Assembly (NCBI GenBank): GCA_016870355.1
Contig: VGBR01000015.1
Coordinates: 1-43,394 of the forward strand
DNA length: 43,394 nt
Source of the DNA: Actinomycetota bacterium
Lineage (GTDB): Bacteria; Actinomycetota; Acidimicrobiia; IMCC26256; PALSA-555
Reading direction: 5' to 3'
Shown here: in pieces, positions 30,794-35,688 of the stretch
Position numbering within the stretch: position 1 is the stretch's first letter
Layout: each line of letters starts with the position of its first letter
The notes under the pieces: model-generated
The model's database searches: none
What the model was told of the DNA's origin: nothing
What the model saw: only the letters and a program-made list of their open reading frames with translations
Position numbers and translations under genes: made by a program

Positions 30794-32470
30794 TCAGGCG
30801 CCGGCAGCAGTGCCGGCCATCTCCGGCGAAGCGGAATCGACGGCGCGCTTCGCGTGGTAGCTGGAGCGCACCAGCGGTCCCGCCTCAACGTGCGCGAAGC
30901 CGAGTGCGGTCGCGAAGTCGCCGAGCGCGGCGAGCTCATCGGGATGCCACCAGCGAACGACGGGGAGGTGCTGAGCCGACGGTCGCAGGTACTGGCCCAT
31001 CGTGACGATGTCGACGCCTACCGCGCGCAGGTCGACGAGCGCGGCGTGAACCTCGGGCTCCTCTTCACCCATACCGAGGATGAGCCCCGACTTGGTGACG
31101 AGGCCCGCATGCTTGGCCCGCGCGAGGAGCGCGAGCGAACGCGCGTAGCCCGCGGACGGCCGAGCCGCGCGTTGGAGGCGCGCCACGGTCTCGAGGTTGT
31201 GGTTGAGCACGTCGGGGCGCGCCGCGAAGATCACGTCGAGGGCGCCTGGATCGCCCTTGCAGTCAGGGATGAGCACTTCGATCGTCGTCGCCGGGGTGCG
31301 TGCGCGGATGGCGCGCACGGTGGTGGCGAACCCGGACGCGCCCCCGTCGTCGAGGTCGTCGCGGGCGACGCTGGTGACGACGGCGTGACGCAGTCCCAAC
31401 GTCGCGACCGCCTCTGCGACGCGCGCCGGCTCAGCAACATCGAGGGGCAGCGGCTTGCGGGTGTCGACGAGACAGAAGCCGCACGCGCGGGTGCAGCGCT
31501 CGCCGAGGATCATGAAGGTGGCTGTGCGGTCGGCCCAGCACTCGTAGATGTTCGGGCACCCGGCCTCTTCGCAGACGGTGTGCAGCTCGAGCGTGCGCAT
31601 GAGCCGCTTCGTCTCGCGATACGCCGTCCCGAGATCGGCGCGGACCCTCATCCACTCCGGTCGCCGAAACGCCGCACCATCCGACCCGTCCGTCACCGGC
31701 ACATCGACGCCAGCATCTGCCAGCCTCCCCAACAACCGAATCGGCTCTCCCCCCGGGGTTTTCGGCACGCTGAGGGTGTCATAGGCACGCTCAGCGTGCC
31801 GAAAATCCGTGACGTGCTGATGTTCGACGGTGGTGTGGCCGAAGTGGGCAGCGAAGTTGCGGGTGACCGTGTCGACGACCGTCAGCATGTCAGGGGTGTC
31901 GGCGCCGAGGAGTTGGCGCAGTGACGTCACACCCTTGTCGCGGATGCCGCAGGGCACGATGTGCTCGAACATCGCCAGCGCGGGGTCGACGTTCAACGCG
32001 AACCCGTGCCGCGTGCGACCACGAGCCACCTTCACACCGATCGCGGCGATCTTCTCCTCTCTGACCCACACTCCAGTGAGCCGCTCTCGCCGATCGGCCG
32101 TCACCCCCAGCTCGGCGAGCGTGGCGATCAGCACCTGCTCGAGCTCGCGCACGTACGCAACGACGTCGCGCATGCCGTCACGCCACTCGGGCAAGGTGAT
32201 GATCGGGTAGCCGACGAGCTGACCGGGGCCGTGGTACGTGACGTCGCCACCGCGGTCGGTGCGCACGAGCTCGGCGCCCACGTCCGCGGGCGGCGTGAGC
32301 ACGTGCTCCAGATGCGACGTGGTGCCGAGCGTGTAGACGTGCGGGTGCTCGAGCAGCAGCAGGTGGTCGTCGGCGCCGTGCTCGTGCAAGCCCCGCTGGA
32401 GCGCATCCGCATCGGCGTACGAGACCCGTCCAAGCCAACGCGCGTGGAGTGTGGTCACGTTCAAGACCAT
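30794..32470 (-). CDS. lipB-lipA: LipB-LipA fusion: octanoyltransferase joined to lipoyl synthase
   Basis: 558 residues in one uninterrupted frame. Residues 1 to about 220 are LipB: RGGDVTYHGPGQLVGYPI, the Lys in IAAIGVKV and the Cys in HIVPCGI. From about residue 267 it is LipA: RRPEWMRVRADLG, the auxiliary cluster CEEAGCPNIYECW, the radical-SAM CTRACGFC and the C-terminal RSSYHAKR. Together the two would move octanoate to E2 and insert both sulfurs. The ATG at 32470 is eight bases after the E2 stop. A perfect inverted repeat lies in frame in the linker. Internal GTG codons at 31702 and 31696 could still start a normal 300-residue LipA. The stop is four bases from the peptidase start. Confidence 0.9.
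   Translation of the reverse strand: MVLNVTTLHARWLGRVSYADADALQRGLHEHGADDHLLLLEHPHVYTLGTTSHLEHVLTPPADVGAELVRTDRGGDVTYHGPGQLVGYPIITLPEWRDGMRDVVAYVRELEQVLIATLAELGVTADRRERLTGVWVREEKIAAIGVKVARGRTRHGFALNVDPALAMFEHIVPCGIRDKGVTSLRQLLGADTPDMLTVVDTVTRNFAAHFGHTTVEHQHVTDFRHAERAYDTLSVPKTPGGEPIRLLGRLADAGVDVPVTDGSDGAAFRRPEWMRVRADLGTAYRETKRLMRTLELHTVCEEAGCPNIYECWADRTATFMILGERCTRACGFCLVDTRKPLPLDVAEPARVAEAVATLGLRHAVVTSVARDDLDDGGASGFATTVRAIRARTPATTIEVLIPDCKGDPGALDVIFAARPDVLNHNLETVARLQRAARPSAGYARSLALLARAKHAGLVTKSGLILGMGEEEPEVHAALVDLRAVGVDIVTMGQYLRPSAQHLPVVRWWHPDELAALGDFATALGFAHVEAGPLVRSSYHAKRAVDSASPEMAGTAAGA
31759..31805. repeat. Perfect 16-bp inverted repeat inside lipBA
   Basis: Arms at 31759-31774 (TTTTCGGCACGCTGAG) and 31790-31805 are exact reverse complements, separated by 15 bases. 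The inner part (31784-31800) is a further palindrome, GGCACGCT-C-AGCGTGCC. It encodes about residues 222-237 of the fusion protein (the linker) without a stop. T/A tracts on both outer sides and a GC core look like a bidirectional terminator or a mobile palindromic element. No second copy was seen in the window. Confidence 0.85.
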
Positions 32471-32477
32471 ATGTCGC

Positions 32478-34286
32478 CTACTCGAGCTCGGCGTTCCAGT
32501 CCCTGGACTCGAGTCGCTCCTTGAGCGCACGCAGGAACGACGCTGCGTACGCTCCGTCGAACGCACGGTGATCCCATGCGAACGACAGCATGCCGAGGTG
32601 ACGCACTGCGATCACATCCTCGCCGTCAGGAGTGTTGACCACGTCGGGGCGCTTCTCGACCGCGTCGGTGGAGAGGATCGCGACCTGCGGCTGGTTGATG
32701 ATCGGCATCGTCAGGAAGGTGCCGAACGGTCCGGGGTTCGTGATCGTGAACGTGCCGCCGAGCACCTCGTCGGGGAGGAGCTGCTTGGTGCGGGCACGCT
32801 CGGCGAGATCACGGATCTCCCTGGCGATGAATGGCAGCCGCTTGCCGTCGGCGTTGTGGATCACCGGTGCCACCAGGCCCTCGAAGTCGAGATCGACTGC
32901 GATCGAGAGATGGACGTCGCGGTGCACGACGAGCGAGTCGCCGACCACGCTCGCGTTCACGTGGGGGAACTCGGCGATCGTGTCGGCAACTGCGCGAGCG
33001 ATGAACGGCATGAAGGTGAGCGAGAACCCTTCCTTCTGCTTCCAGTCGGCCTGGCGCGCATCGCGCACGCGCGAGATGCGCTCGAAGTCGACCTGGATGG
33101 ACGTGTGCACGTGCGCGCTCGTGGCCTTCGAGCGGACCATGTGCTCCGCCGTACGGCGCCGGATGTTGGTGAAGGGCACGGTCTCGTCGCCGCGTGAGCC
33201 CGCGGGCATCGTGCCCCACGCCGGCGGCGCCAGCGGTGCTGGCGGCGGCGGTGGTTCGGGCACCACGACGGGCGGCGGTGCCGGTGGTGGTGGAGGCGGT
33301 GGCACCGGGGGCGGCGGCGGAGGTGGTGCGGCCGGGGGTGGCGGGGGCTCCACTGGCGCGGCCGGAGTCGGCAGCTCCATCGGGGGCGGAGGTGGCTCAG
33401 GCGCCGGTGCGGGCTCCGGTACCGGCTCGACGGGCGGTGGCTCGACCGGGGCCGGGATGATCGGCGCCACGGGCTCGGGAGGCGGCACCGATGCGGGAGC
33501 GGGCGGCGGGGATGGTGCCGTTCCGCGGGAGGCGGCCGCGGCCAGCACGTCGCGACGGGTGATGCGCCCGCCCTCACCGGTGCCCTGGATCGATGCGGCG
33601 TCCAGGCCGTGCTGCGCGATCAGGCGACGCACGACCGGCGACGTGAGCGGCTGACCCGCGGCAGCGGTGACGGGCGCGGCGGGCGCGGGCGGAAGCGGAG
33701 AGGGTGGTGGAGGTGCTGGCGAAGGCGGCGGTGGTGCTGGCGAAGGCGGCGGTGGTGCCGCCGCGGGCACGAGCGGCTCGGGTGGCGGCGCCGGCGCGAC
33801 GGGCTCCGGCGCCCTCGGTGCGACGGGTATCGGAGCGGCGGGCGCAACGGGTTCCGCTGGCGCCACCGGCATGACGGGCTCCGGCGGTGCAACAGGTTCT
33901 GGCGCCATCGGTGTGACCGGCTGTGCTGGCGCGGCCGGCGCAACCGGCGGGATCACGACTGGGACCGGTGGCGGCGCCGCGGCGGGTGGCACTGCGGTCG
34001 GTGGCACTGCGGCCGGCGACACGCTGGCAGCAGGCGTGTCGGCCGGAGCTGCTCCCGCTTCGTCGATGATCGCGAGCACGGTGCCCACGGCGACCGTCTC
34101 TCCCTCCGCAACCCGGATCTCGGTCACCACGCCGCTCATCGGCGCGGGGACCTCAGAGTCCACCTTGTCGGTCGACACCTCGAACAATGGCTCGTCGGCT
34201 TGGATCCTCTGCCCGGCTTGCTTGAACCAGCGCGTGATCGTGCCCTCGGTGACCGTCTCACCGAGCTGCGGCATCGTCACGTCCAA
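32478..34286 (-). CDS. 2-oxoacid dehydrogenase E2 acyltransferase with long Pro/Ala linkers
   Basis: 602 residues. An N-terminal lipoyl domain has the lipoylated Lys in FEVSTDKVDSEVPAP. Pro/Ala-rich linker 1 follows (about residues 85-205), then the E3-binding domain SPVVRRLIAQHGLDAASIQG (about 212-250), Pro-rich linker 2 (about 255-360) and the catalytic domain from about 365, ending with DHRAFDG (His and Asp of the active site). It transfers acyl groups to CoA in the 2-oxoglutarate or branched-chain complex; which one is unclear. The TTG at 34286 is preceded at eight bases by AAGGAGG, a strong ribosome-binding site, and fits the domain start. lpd lies directly upstream. Confidence 0.92.
   Translation of the reverse strand: MDVTMPQLGETVTEGTITRWFKQAGQRIQADEPLFEVSTDKVDSEVPAPMSGVVTEIRVAEGETVAVGTVLAIIDEAGAAPADTPAASVSPAAVPPTAVPPAAAPPPVPVVIPPVAPAAPAQPVTPMAPEPVAPPEPVMPVAPAEPVAPAAPIPVAPRAPEPVAPAPPPEPLVPAAAPPPPSPAPPPPSPAPPPPSPLPPAPAAPVTAAAGQPLTSPVVRRLIAQHGLDAASIQGTGEGGRITRRDVLAAAASRGTAPSPPPAPASVPPPEPVAPIIPAPVEPPPVEPVPEPAPAPEPPPPPMELPTPAAPVEPPPPPAAPPPPPPPVPPPPPPPAPPPVVVPEPPPPPAPLAPPAWGTMPAGSRGDETVPFTNIRRRTAEHMVRSKATSAHVHTSIQVDFERISRVRDARQADWKQKEGFSLTFMPFIARAVADTIAEFPHVNASVVGDSLVVHRDVHLSIAVDLDFEGLVAPVIHNADGKRLPFIAREIRDLAERARTKQLLPDEVLGGTFTITNPGPFGTFLTMPIINQPQVAILSTDAVEKRPDVVNTPDGEDVIAVRHLGMLSFAWDHRAFDGAYAASFLRALKERLESRDWNAELE
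33715..33756. repeat. Two perfect 21-bp tandem repeats in the E2 linker
   Basis: Two head-to-tail copies of a 21-base unit (33715-33735 and 33736-33756; seven codons giving a PPPPSPA unit on the minus strand), with a degenerate third copy beside them. They lie in linker 1 of the E2 gene. In-frame units of this kind let the linker lengthen or shorten by slippage without breaking the gene. Confidence 0.8.
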
Positions 34287-34305
34287 GGGGTTCGCCTCCT
34301 TCCGG

Positions 34306-35688
34306 TCAGTGGAGTGGTCGTCCGGTGAGCGCGAGCGTCGCCTCGCCGAACACCTCACTGAGCGTCGGGTGCGCGTGGATCAGCGGCGCGATCTCTGCGG
34401 CCGATGCTTCCCAGTTCACGGCCAGGTAGCCCTCGGCGATGAGCTCGGTTGCCCACGGACCGACCATGTGGACACCGAGGATCGGCCCGTCGCGCTCAGC
34501 CACGATCTTCACGATGCCGTCGGGCTCTCCGAGGATGAGCGCGCGGCCGTCGCCGACGAAGCGCTGCACCGCGGTGACGACGTCATAGCCGCGCTCGCGC
34601 GCCTGCTCTTCGGTGAGACCCGAGAACGCGACCTCGGGGTGGCAGTAGATCCCCCACGGCACCTTGTCGTACTGGATCGGCTGCACCTCTTCACCGAGGA
34701 TGGTCTTGACCGCGACGATCGCCTCGGCGAACGCAACGTGCGCGAGCGCGGGCGTGTCGACGACGTCGCCGACCGCGTACACGCCGGGCACTGTGGTCTG
34801 CATGTGATCGTTCACCTGGACGAACCCGTTGCGCTCGAGTCCCACGCCTGATTCCTCGAGGCCGAGGCCCTGGGTTCGCGGCGCGCGACCAACACAGACG
34901 ACCACCTGATCGACGGCCACGGTCGCGGTGCCTTCGGGACCCTCGAACGTGACCGCGAGCTCGCGCGTCCCCTCGATGCTCGTGACCCGTACACCGGCAT
35001 GGGCCGAGATGTTGCGACGACGGAACGCGCGCGCCAACGCCACCGACACCTCGGCATCGACGCCGGGCAGGATGCGCGGCAGCGCCTCGAGCAGCGTCAC
35101 CTCGGTACCGAAGTCGGCGAGCATCGACGCGAACTCGCACCCGACGGCACCCGCCCCGATGATTGCGACGCGGCGAGGAACCTCTTCGAGCTCGAGCACG
35201 TGGTCAGAGGAGAGGATGAGCGACCCGTCGAAGTCGAGCCCGGGCAACGAGCGCGCGGCCGAACCGGTGGCGAGCACGAGCGCGTTGCCCGCGACCTCAG
35301 TGCCTTCCGACACGAGGATGCGTCGCGCGGCAGCGTCAGCGATGGCCCCGGTGCCGCTGATGACCGTGACCTCGCGACCTTTGAGCAGCGTCTCGAGTCC
35401 CTTGGTGAGGCGGTCGATGACCTGGTGCTTGCGGGCCTGACTCGTGCGGACGTCGAGGGTTGGCTCGCCGGCGTTCACGCCGAACTCCTTGGCGGTCTGC
35501 ACGGTGCGGAGCACCTCGGCGGTCTGGAGGAGCTCCTTCGCCGGGATGCAACCGTGGTGCAGGCAGGTGCCGCCGACGCGCTGCTCCTCGACGAGGGCGA
35601 TGCGCAGGCCCGCGGCGGCGCCGTACAGCGCGGCCGCATAGCCGCCCGGCCCTCCGCCGAGGACGACTACGTCGAACTGGTCCGGCAC
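34306..35688 (-). CDS. lpdA: Dihydrolipoamide dehydrogenase (E3)
   Basis: 460 residues from a GTG preceded by GGGGAG. FAD site VVVLGGGPGGYAAALYGA, redox disulfide in GGTCLHHGCIPAK, NAD site RVAIIGAGAVGCEFASML, the second FAD motif PGVYAVGDVVDTPAL and the C-terminal active-site HAHPTLSEVFGEA are all present. It reoxidises the dihydrolipoyl arm of E2 encoded immediately downstream (19 bases between the genes), so it starts the lpd-E2-lipBA unit. The 5' leader holds a 6-bp hairpin at 35700-35716 next to the ribosome-binding site. Confidence 0.95.
   Translation of the reverse strand: MPDQFDVVVLGGGPGGYAAALYGAAAGLRIALVEEQRVGGTCLHHGCIPAKELLQTAEVLRTVQTAKEFGVNAGEPTLDVRTSQARKHQVIDRLTKGLETLLKGREVTVISGTGAIADAAARRILVSEGTEVAGNALVLATGSAARSLPGLDFDGSLILSSDHVLELEEVPRRVAIIGAGAVGCEFASMLADFGTEVTLLEALPRILPGVDAEVSVALARAFRRRNISAHAGVRVTSIEGTRELAVTFEGPEGTATVAVDQVVVCVGRAPRTQGLGLEESGVGLERNGFVQVNDHMQTTVPGVYAVGDVVDTPALAHVAFAEAIVAVKTILGEEVQPIQYDKVPWGIYCHPEVAFSGLTEEQARERGYDVVTAVQRFVGDGRALILGEPDGIVKIVAERDGPILGVHMVGPWATELIAEGYLAVNWEASAAEIAPLIHAHPTLSEVFGEATLALTGRPLH

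Follow-up and report, generated by a model that had tools for sequence, protein, structure and literature searches.

The spread of REPs is known mainly with RAYTs (REP-associated tyrosine transposases). REPs themselves are short, dispersed, species-specific palindromes that lie mostly less than 20 bp from the stop codons of convergent or tandem genes; certain copies provide the stop codon itself, others are read in frame inside genes, and the RAYT gene is bracketed by two copies (PMC2817692, PMC3733652, PMC3116915). In Xanthomonas, the recB genes of different species carry different REPs at nearly the same position (PMC3733652). Another system, the Rickettsia palindromic elements (RPEs), consists of palindromes of 105–146 bp that are common in protein-coding genes, where they are translated in frame (PMC2229807). 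We analyzed a 43,394-nucleotide stretch of an Acidimicrobiia genome (contig VGBR01000015.1), called the window below, in which a 47-bp palindrome is located inside the lipB-lipA fusion gene (lipBA). This palindrome is very probably one copy of a dispersed REP-like repeat family, and the lipBA copy a tolerated passenger. The coordinates of the features are given in Table 1.

Table 1. Features of the lipBA locus (window positions) and units in which an AbiEi-DUF559 gene lies between two element copies (contig positions)
Feature	Position	Strand	Basis or remark
47-bp palindromic element, CGGCACG class	31759..31805	.	16-bp perfect arms and 15-nt middle
Inner 17-base palindrome	31784..31800	.	8-bp arms, 1-nt center; overlaps the right arm
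lipB-lipA fusion gene, 558 aa	30794..32470	minus	probable ATG at 32470, stop ends at 30794; homologous fusions in relatives
LipB domain, PF21948 LplA-B_cat, residues 22–206	31853..32407	minus	Pfam
Interdomain linker with element, residues 221–268	31667..31810	minus	alignment of 30 fusions
LipA N-terminal domain, PF16881 (LIAS_N), residues 265–305	31556..31678	minus	Pfam
LipA radical SAM domain, PF04055, residues 320–476	31043..31513	minus	Pfam
E2-like 2-oxoacid dehydrogenase ORF	32478..34358	minus	translation only
Dihydrolipoamide dehydrogenase-like ORF	34306..35688	minus	translation only
Bracketed unit, G000 (L101)	C10:93675-94703		
Bracketed unit, G000 (L166)	C4:166181-167236		
Bracketed unit, G000 (L176)	C5:77060-78083		
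Bracketed unit, G000 (L425)	C5 ~199.0-200.06 kb		
Bracketed unit, G002 (L424)	C197		
Bracketed unit, G005 (L154)	C160		
Bracketed unit, G007 (L427)	C278		
Bracketed unit, G014 (L426)	C23		

The arms of the palindrome, TTTTCGGCACGCTGAG (31759–31774) and CTCAGCGTGCCGAAAA (31790–31805), are perfect reverse complements separated by 15 nt, and the inner palindrome reads GGCACGCT-C-AGCGTGCC. The element is in frame in the LipB-LipA ORF and encodes residues 223–237 (FRHAERAYDTLSVPK). The lipBA-strand RNA of the palindrome folds with −37.5 kcal/mol (z = −6.1), and none of 200 dinucleotide shuffles was as stable. The exact arms, the stable fold and the uninterrupted 558-aa ORF bear out the initial annotation, which had described perfect 16-base arms at an in-frame linker position. 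Against the covariance model of the family the lipBA palindrome scored E = 4e-20, a value obtained with the same copy in the training set of the model. Rfam gave no matches in the window, and the exact element sequence was not found in viral contigs. The fusion gene adjoins the E2-like ORF, which has a very long proline-rich linker, and the dihydrolipoamide dehydrogenase-like ORF lies nearby.

The genome to which the locus belongs (G000; 2.82 Mb, 31 contigs, draft, 96% complete) contains many BLAST matches to an 81-bp region around the palindrome. The core TTTCGGCAC occurs there at 66 sites, mostly within paired elements, while its reversed control gave 17 sites, and many of the 66 form inverted pairs at exactly 36 nt. 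The paired pattern TTTCGGCAC(N27)GTGCCGAAA was found at 20 sites, all with this single spacing, although spacings of 24–30 were allowed; the reversed control gave no sites, and the pattern was absent from all 60 relatives. A covariance model built on 21 members (R1) detected about 70 sites in the genome. Both-sided changes were present in 9 of the 16 stem pairs of these members, which were chosen partly for palindromy. The copies are near-constant in length and fall into at least three stem classes, CGGCACG (the majority), GGCGTCG and GGGGACG; beside the stem, the flank consensus is C-G-G-K on both sides. A DNA uptake sequence of the Neisseria type was rejected, since single TTTCGGCAC copies are not in large excess. 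It could also be supposed that the palindrome arose by chance from codon usage in the linker, as GC-rich coding DNA may allow. The fold stability, the fixed spacing, the empty reversed control and the related copies argue against this; chance is refuted because a genome-wide family exists, and we give it practically no weight. The initial annotation had regarded the palindrome as a dispersed element captured as a coding linker, comparable in principle to an RPE, and had named the lack of other copies in the genome as the outcome against this idea. The search found the copies, and the idea holds.

Elements of the same kind are present in the congeners G001–G003 and in genus g3, and other palindrome families in genus g5, G014, G029 and G025. 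For 94 of 112 copies, the nearest neighbor by sequence belonged to the host's own genome. With a length of 47 bp and about 70 similar copies, the family resembles REPs. The GTAG/CGTC end tag of REPs was not seen, and the C-G-G-K flanks stand in its place.

The location of the copies was classified with a simple codon-usage gene caller written for this analysis. Among 66 classified copies of G000, 34 were located between convergent genes, 27 between tandem genes and 3 between divergent genes, and 2 were inside genes; the commonest distance from a stop codon to an element was 8 nt. As a background, 20 stretches of 20 kb each (400 kb of G000) were analyzed; of their gene pairs, 60 were convergent, 253 were tandem and 63 were divergent, and 92% of the DNA was coding. 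Thus, both the convergent excess of the elements (p = 8e-12) and their avoidance of coding DNA are strong. The pattern in G001, G002 and G003 is as in G000. A mainly extragenic location near gene ends is also the one published for REPs (PMC12306157, PMC3733652). The GAGCATGTGACG palindrome of genus g5 in many cases provides the TGA stop codon of the neighboring gene (L133, L316, L319 and L321; G007 and G009).

Such a distribution could mean that the elements are bidirectional terminators or mRNA 3′-end stem-loops selected at gene ends, and that the lipBA copy attenuates transcription from LipB to LipA. The location 3′ of genes, the convergent bias, the ability of a palindrome to work from both strands and the strong hairpins (on average about −27 kcal/mol) are in agreement with this. 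However, the stem starts with T4 and ends with A4, and the flanks are T-poor; therefore, neither strand carries a U-tract after the hairpin. In the transcribed orientation of tandem copies, imperfect pairs were G-U in 26 cases and A-C in 35 (p = 0.31), and the absent asymmetry gives no support for selection on an RNA hairpin, which in lipBA might adjust the LipB:LipA ratio according to the initial annotation. Moreover, sites in sister species are empty, and in lipBA the essential-type LipA lies downstream in frame. Intrinsic terminators, including the mycobacterial TRIT (PMC3526491; compared by description only), are likewise hairpins located shortly after stop codons, but the present palindromes lack the U-tract, form a dispersed repeat with turnover and have in-frame coding copies. 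We consider a terminator function unlikely. From the suggestion of a former terminator in the initial annotation, the position of the family 3′ of genes stands, and the U-tract is missing. If the repeats have any role at mRNA 3′ ends, it would belong to the intergenic copies; in lipBA, the hairpin would presumably be held open by ribosomes during translation.

Both in-gene copies of G000 are in frame at interdomain junctions, one in lipBA and the other where two CoA-transferase III domains are joined in a fusion protein (CaiB-CaiB; L113, C4:141045). In G001, two in-gene copies were found, again in lipBA and CaiB-CaiB (L303). In G029, which belongs to another family and carries an unrelated palindrome class, two of ten loci were in-gene copies, and these too were lipBA and CaiB-CaiB (L407). 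The CaiB-CaiB protein of G029 is a different paralogue with 32% identity, with the element at the domain junction. As with RPEs, these palindromes are translated in frame in protein-coding genes; they differ from RPEs in that just two of the roughly 70 copies are coding and both of these lie at domain junctions. In genus g1, the copy has not lengthened the lipBA linker. The length of the lipBA linker varies widely and can even include peptide repeats (G015), so tolerance explains why the linker is a target. Plain tolerance would predict a less specific pattern than the one seen, in which lipBA and CaiB-CaiB are both struck in unrelated lineages, and it does not fully explain this recurrence. 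Xanthomonas recB offers a similar case of one gene struck by different palindromes in related species, but here there are five unrelated classes in several Acidimicrobiia families, and CaiB-CaiB is struck in parallel.

LipB and LipA are fused in all Acidimicrobiia loci with both parts readable, nearly all of which are without such a palindrome; in Actinomycetes loci, the two are split. The fusion existed before the palindrome, and therefore the element did not create it, contrary to what had been proposed from the sequence of this locus. Palindromes of dispersed families, in five classes, occupy the lipBA linker of G000, G001, G002, G005, G007, G009, G010, G025 and G029, with unrelated families at this same linker in G001, G007/G009/G010, G025 and G029. 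G014 has a dispersed family and an element-free lipBA linker, thus capture is not obligatory. In G000, G001, G002 and G005, the lipBA element differs from a paralogue in its own genome by 2–4 mismatches, whereas between these genomes the lipBA elements differ by 12–25 mismatches, with lipBA flanks 77–81% identical. The better match within the genome indicates that the site was rewritten and not just inherited. Other orthologous element sites in sister species are empty or carry another class. The lipBA linker of genus g1 does not exceed the length seen in relatives without an element, which suggests that the sequence was replaced and not simply added. As for linker composition, there are three tandem in-frame palindromes in G025 (L089) and two in G010 (L091), and the linker of G015 (L094) is very long, with degenerate, REHDRA-like peptide repeats.

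The same data can be read as vertical inheritance of elements that are not currently mobile and that evolve in concert through gene conversion (or quasi-palindrome template switching). The lipBA element has the same offset in G000 and G002, congeners share orthologous sites with a host-typical inner sequence, and the both-sided stem changes fit this process. Nevertheless, the linker holds unrelated classes in different genera and families, and orthologous sites have switched class, an outcome that conversion between 47-bp repeats would not readily produce. The empty sites and the bracketed genes described below are also left unexplained. Inheritance of this kind has some chance of being correct, but we find it improbable as the main process. 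A dispersed REP-like family remains our preferred reading.

The Y1_Tnp/RAYT domain (PF01797) was found in none of 21 draft genomes, while the control genomes were positive. Instead, an AbiEi-DUF559 nuclease-like gene lies between two element copies in eight units of five genomes, three of these units being at one orthologous site. The arrangement of a candidate mobilizer gene enclosed by two copies is shared with REP/RAYT systems; the enclosed gene is different. Around each bracketed gene, the palindromes belong to the host's own class, and in G000 all four element pairs that are at most about 1.1 kb apart enclose such a gene. The relative orientation of the bracketing copies is mixed or undecidable, not consistently inverted. 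The chance level of bracketing was about 4–7% per side. The N-terminal half of the protein matches AbiEi antitoxin models, and the C-terminus matches DUF559/MTES_1575 of the restriction-endonuclease type, with several matches below the Pfam cut-offs. At the orthologous site, the units of G000 (C10), G002 and G005 are 1029–1033 bp long, and G001 and G003 have the same neighbors with the whole unit absent. Iterated matches in L433 and L434 turned out to be antisense artifacts; both loci are empty sites. The protein clades follow the palindrome core, with three proteins for CGGCACG (100/100) and three for GCGTCG (100/99); two further palindrome classes have one protein each.

The bracketed gene could, on the other hand, be cargo, that is, an antitoxin-like or defense gene moved or insulated by the palindromes and not their mobilizer. 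The AbiEi matches suit such a role, the bracketed genes were detected only in loci of draft genomes fetched for their elements, so detection is biased toward element loci, and three of the units (G000 C10, G002 and G005) are orthologous. Several points speak against the cargo role: the enclosure of the gene by every close pair in G000 together with its absence from the 400-kb sample of that genome, the agreement of protein clades with the core in both classes that have more than one protein, and the nuclease-like C-terminus. We regard cargo as a serious possibility, somewhat short of an even chance. Closely spaced elements on contig C364 of G005 enclose no AbiEi-DUF559 gene, and the palindrome families of G025 and G029 had no partner gene in the loci examined. 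Phmmer found no relative of the protein in the PDB, the sole plasmid match (a Tsukamurella DUF559 protein, 32% identity) has no flanking palindromes, and the papers searched contained none joining DUF559 or AbiEi proteins to REPs. Enclosure of a candidate gene also invites comparison with MITEs; the flanks of orthologous and empty sites are too diverged to define a target duplication or a clean single-element junction.

The copy number, the location 3′ of stop codons, the presence or absence in sister species and the similarity within a genome are apparent from the genomes compared. The family probably spreads by DNA-level copying. The AbiEi-DUF559 protein, judged by the bracketing of its gene with own-class copies, is the most likely agent of this spread, and we put its role in mobilization at about an even chance. 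Copies would persist where they are harmless, for the most part behind stop codons and in rare cases within linkers that permit them. In lipBA, the copy would then be translated as 15 linker residues that are not kept for their protein sequence, and the host's current repeat sequence may overwrite it from time to time. In the fullest form of this proposal, AbiEi-DUF559 proteins, each specific to its bracketing palindrome class, spread and homogenize palindromes in Acidimicrobiia, and the lipBA and CaiB-CaiB linkers are repeatedly overwritten, which would make an undescribed REP-like class. We hold this tentatively, as slightly less probable than its opposite.

A specialist would be surprised that an AbiEi-DUF559 gene is bracketed in the manner of RAYT genes and that the same coding linkers were rewritten repeatedly. 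The AbiEi-DUF559 protein and its palindrome form a definite protein–DNA pair for testing. The lipBA linker, a single coding site where each species has a repeat of its own, serves as a natural record; thus, mobility and gene conversion can be directly distinguished with strain genomes. If the proposal is true, a second, unrelated type of nuclease occupies the same gene arrangement, and palindromic repeats would have been exploited at least twice.
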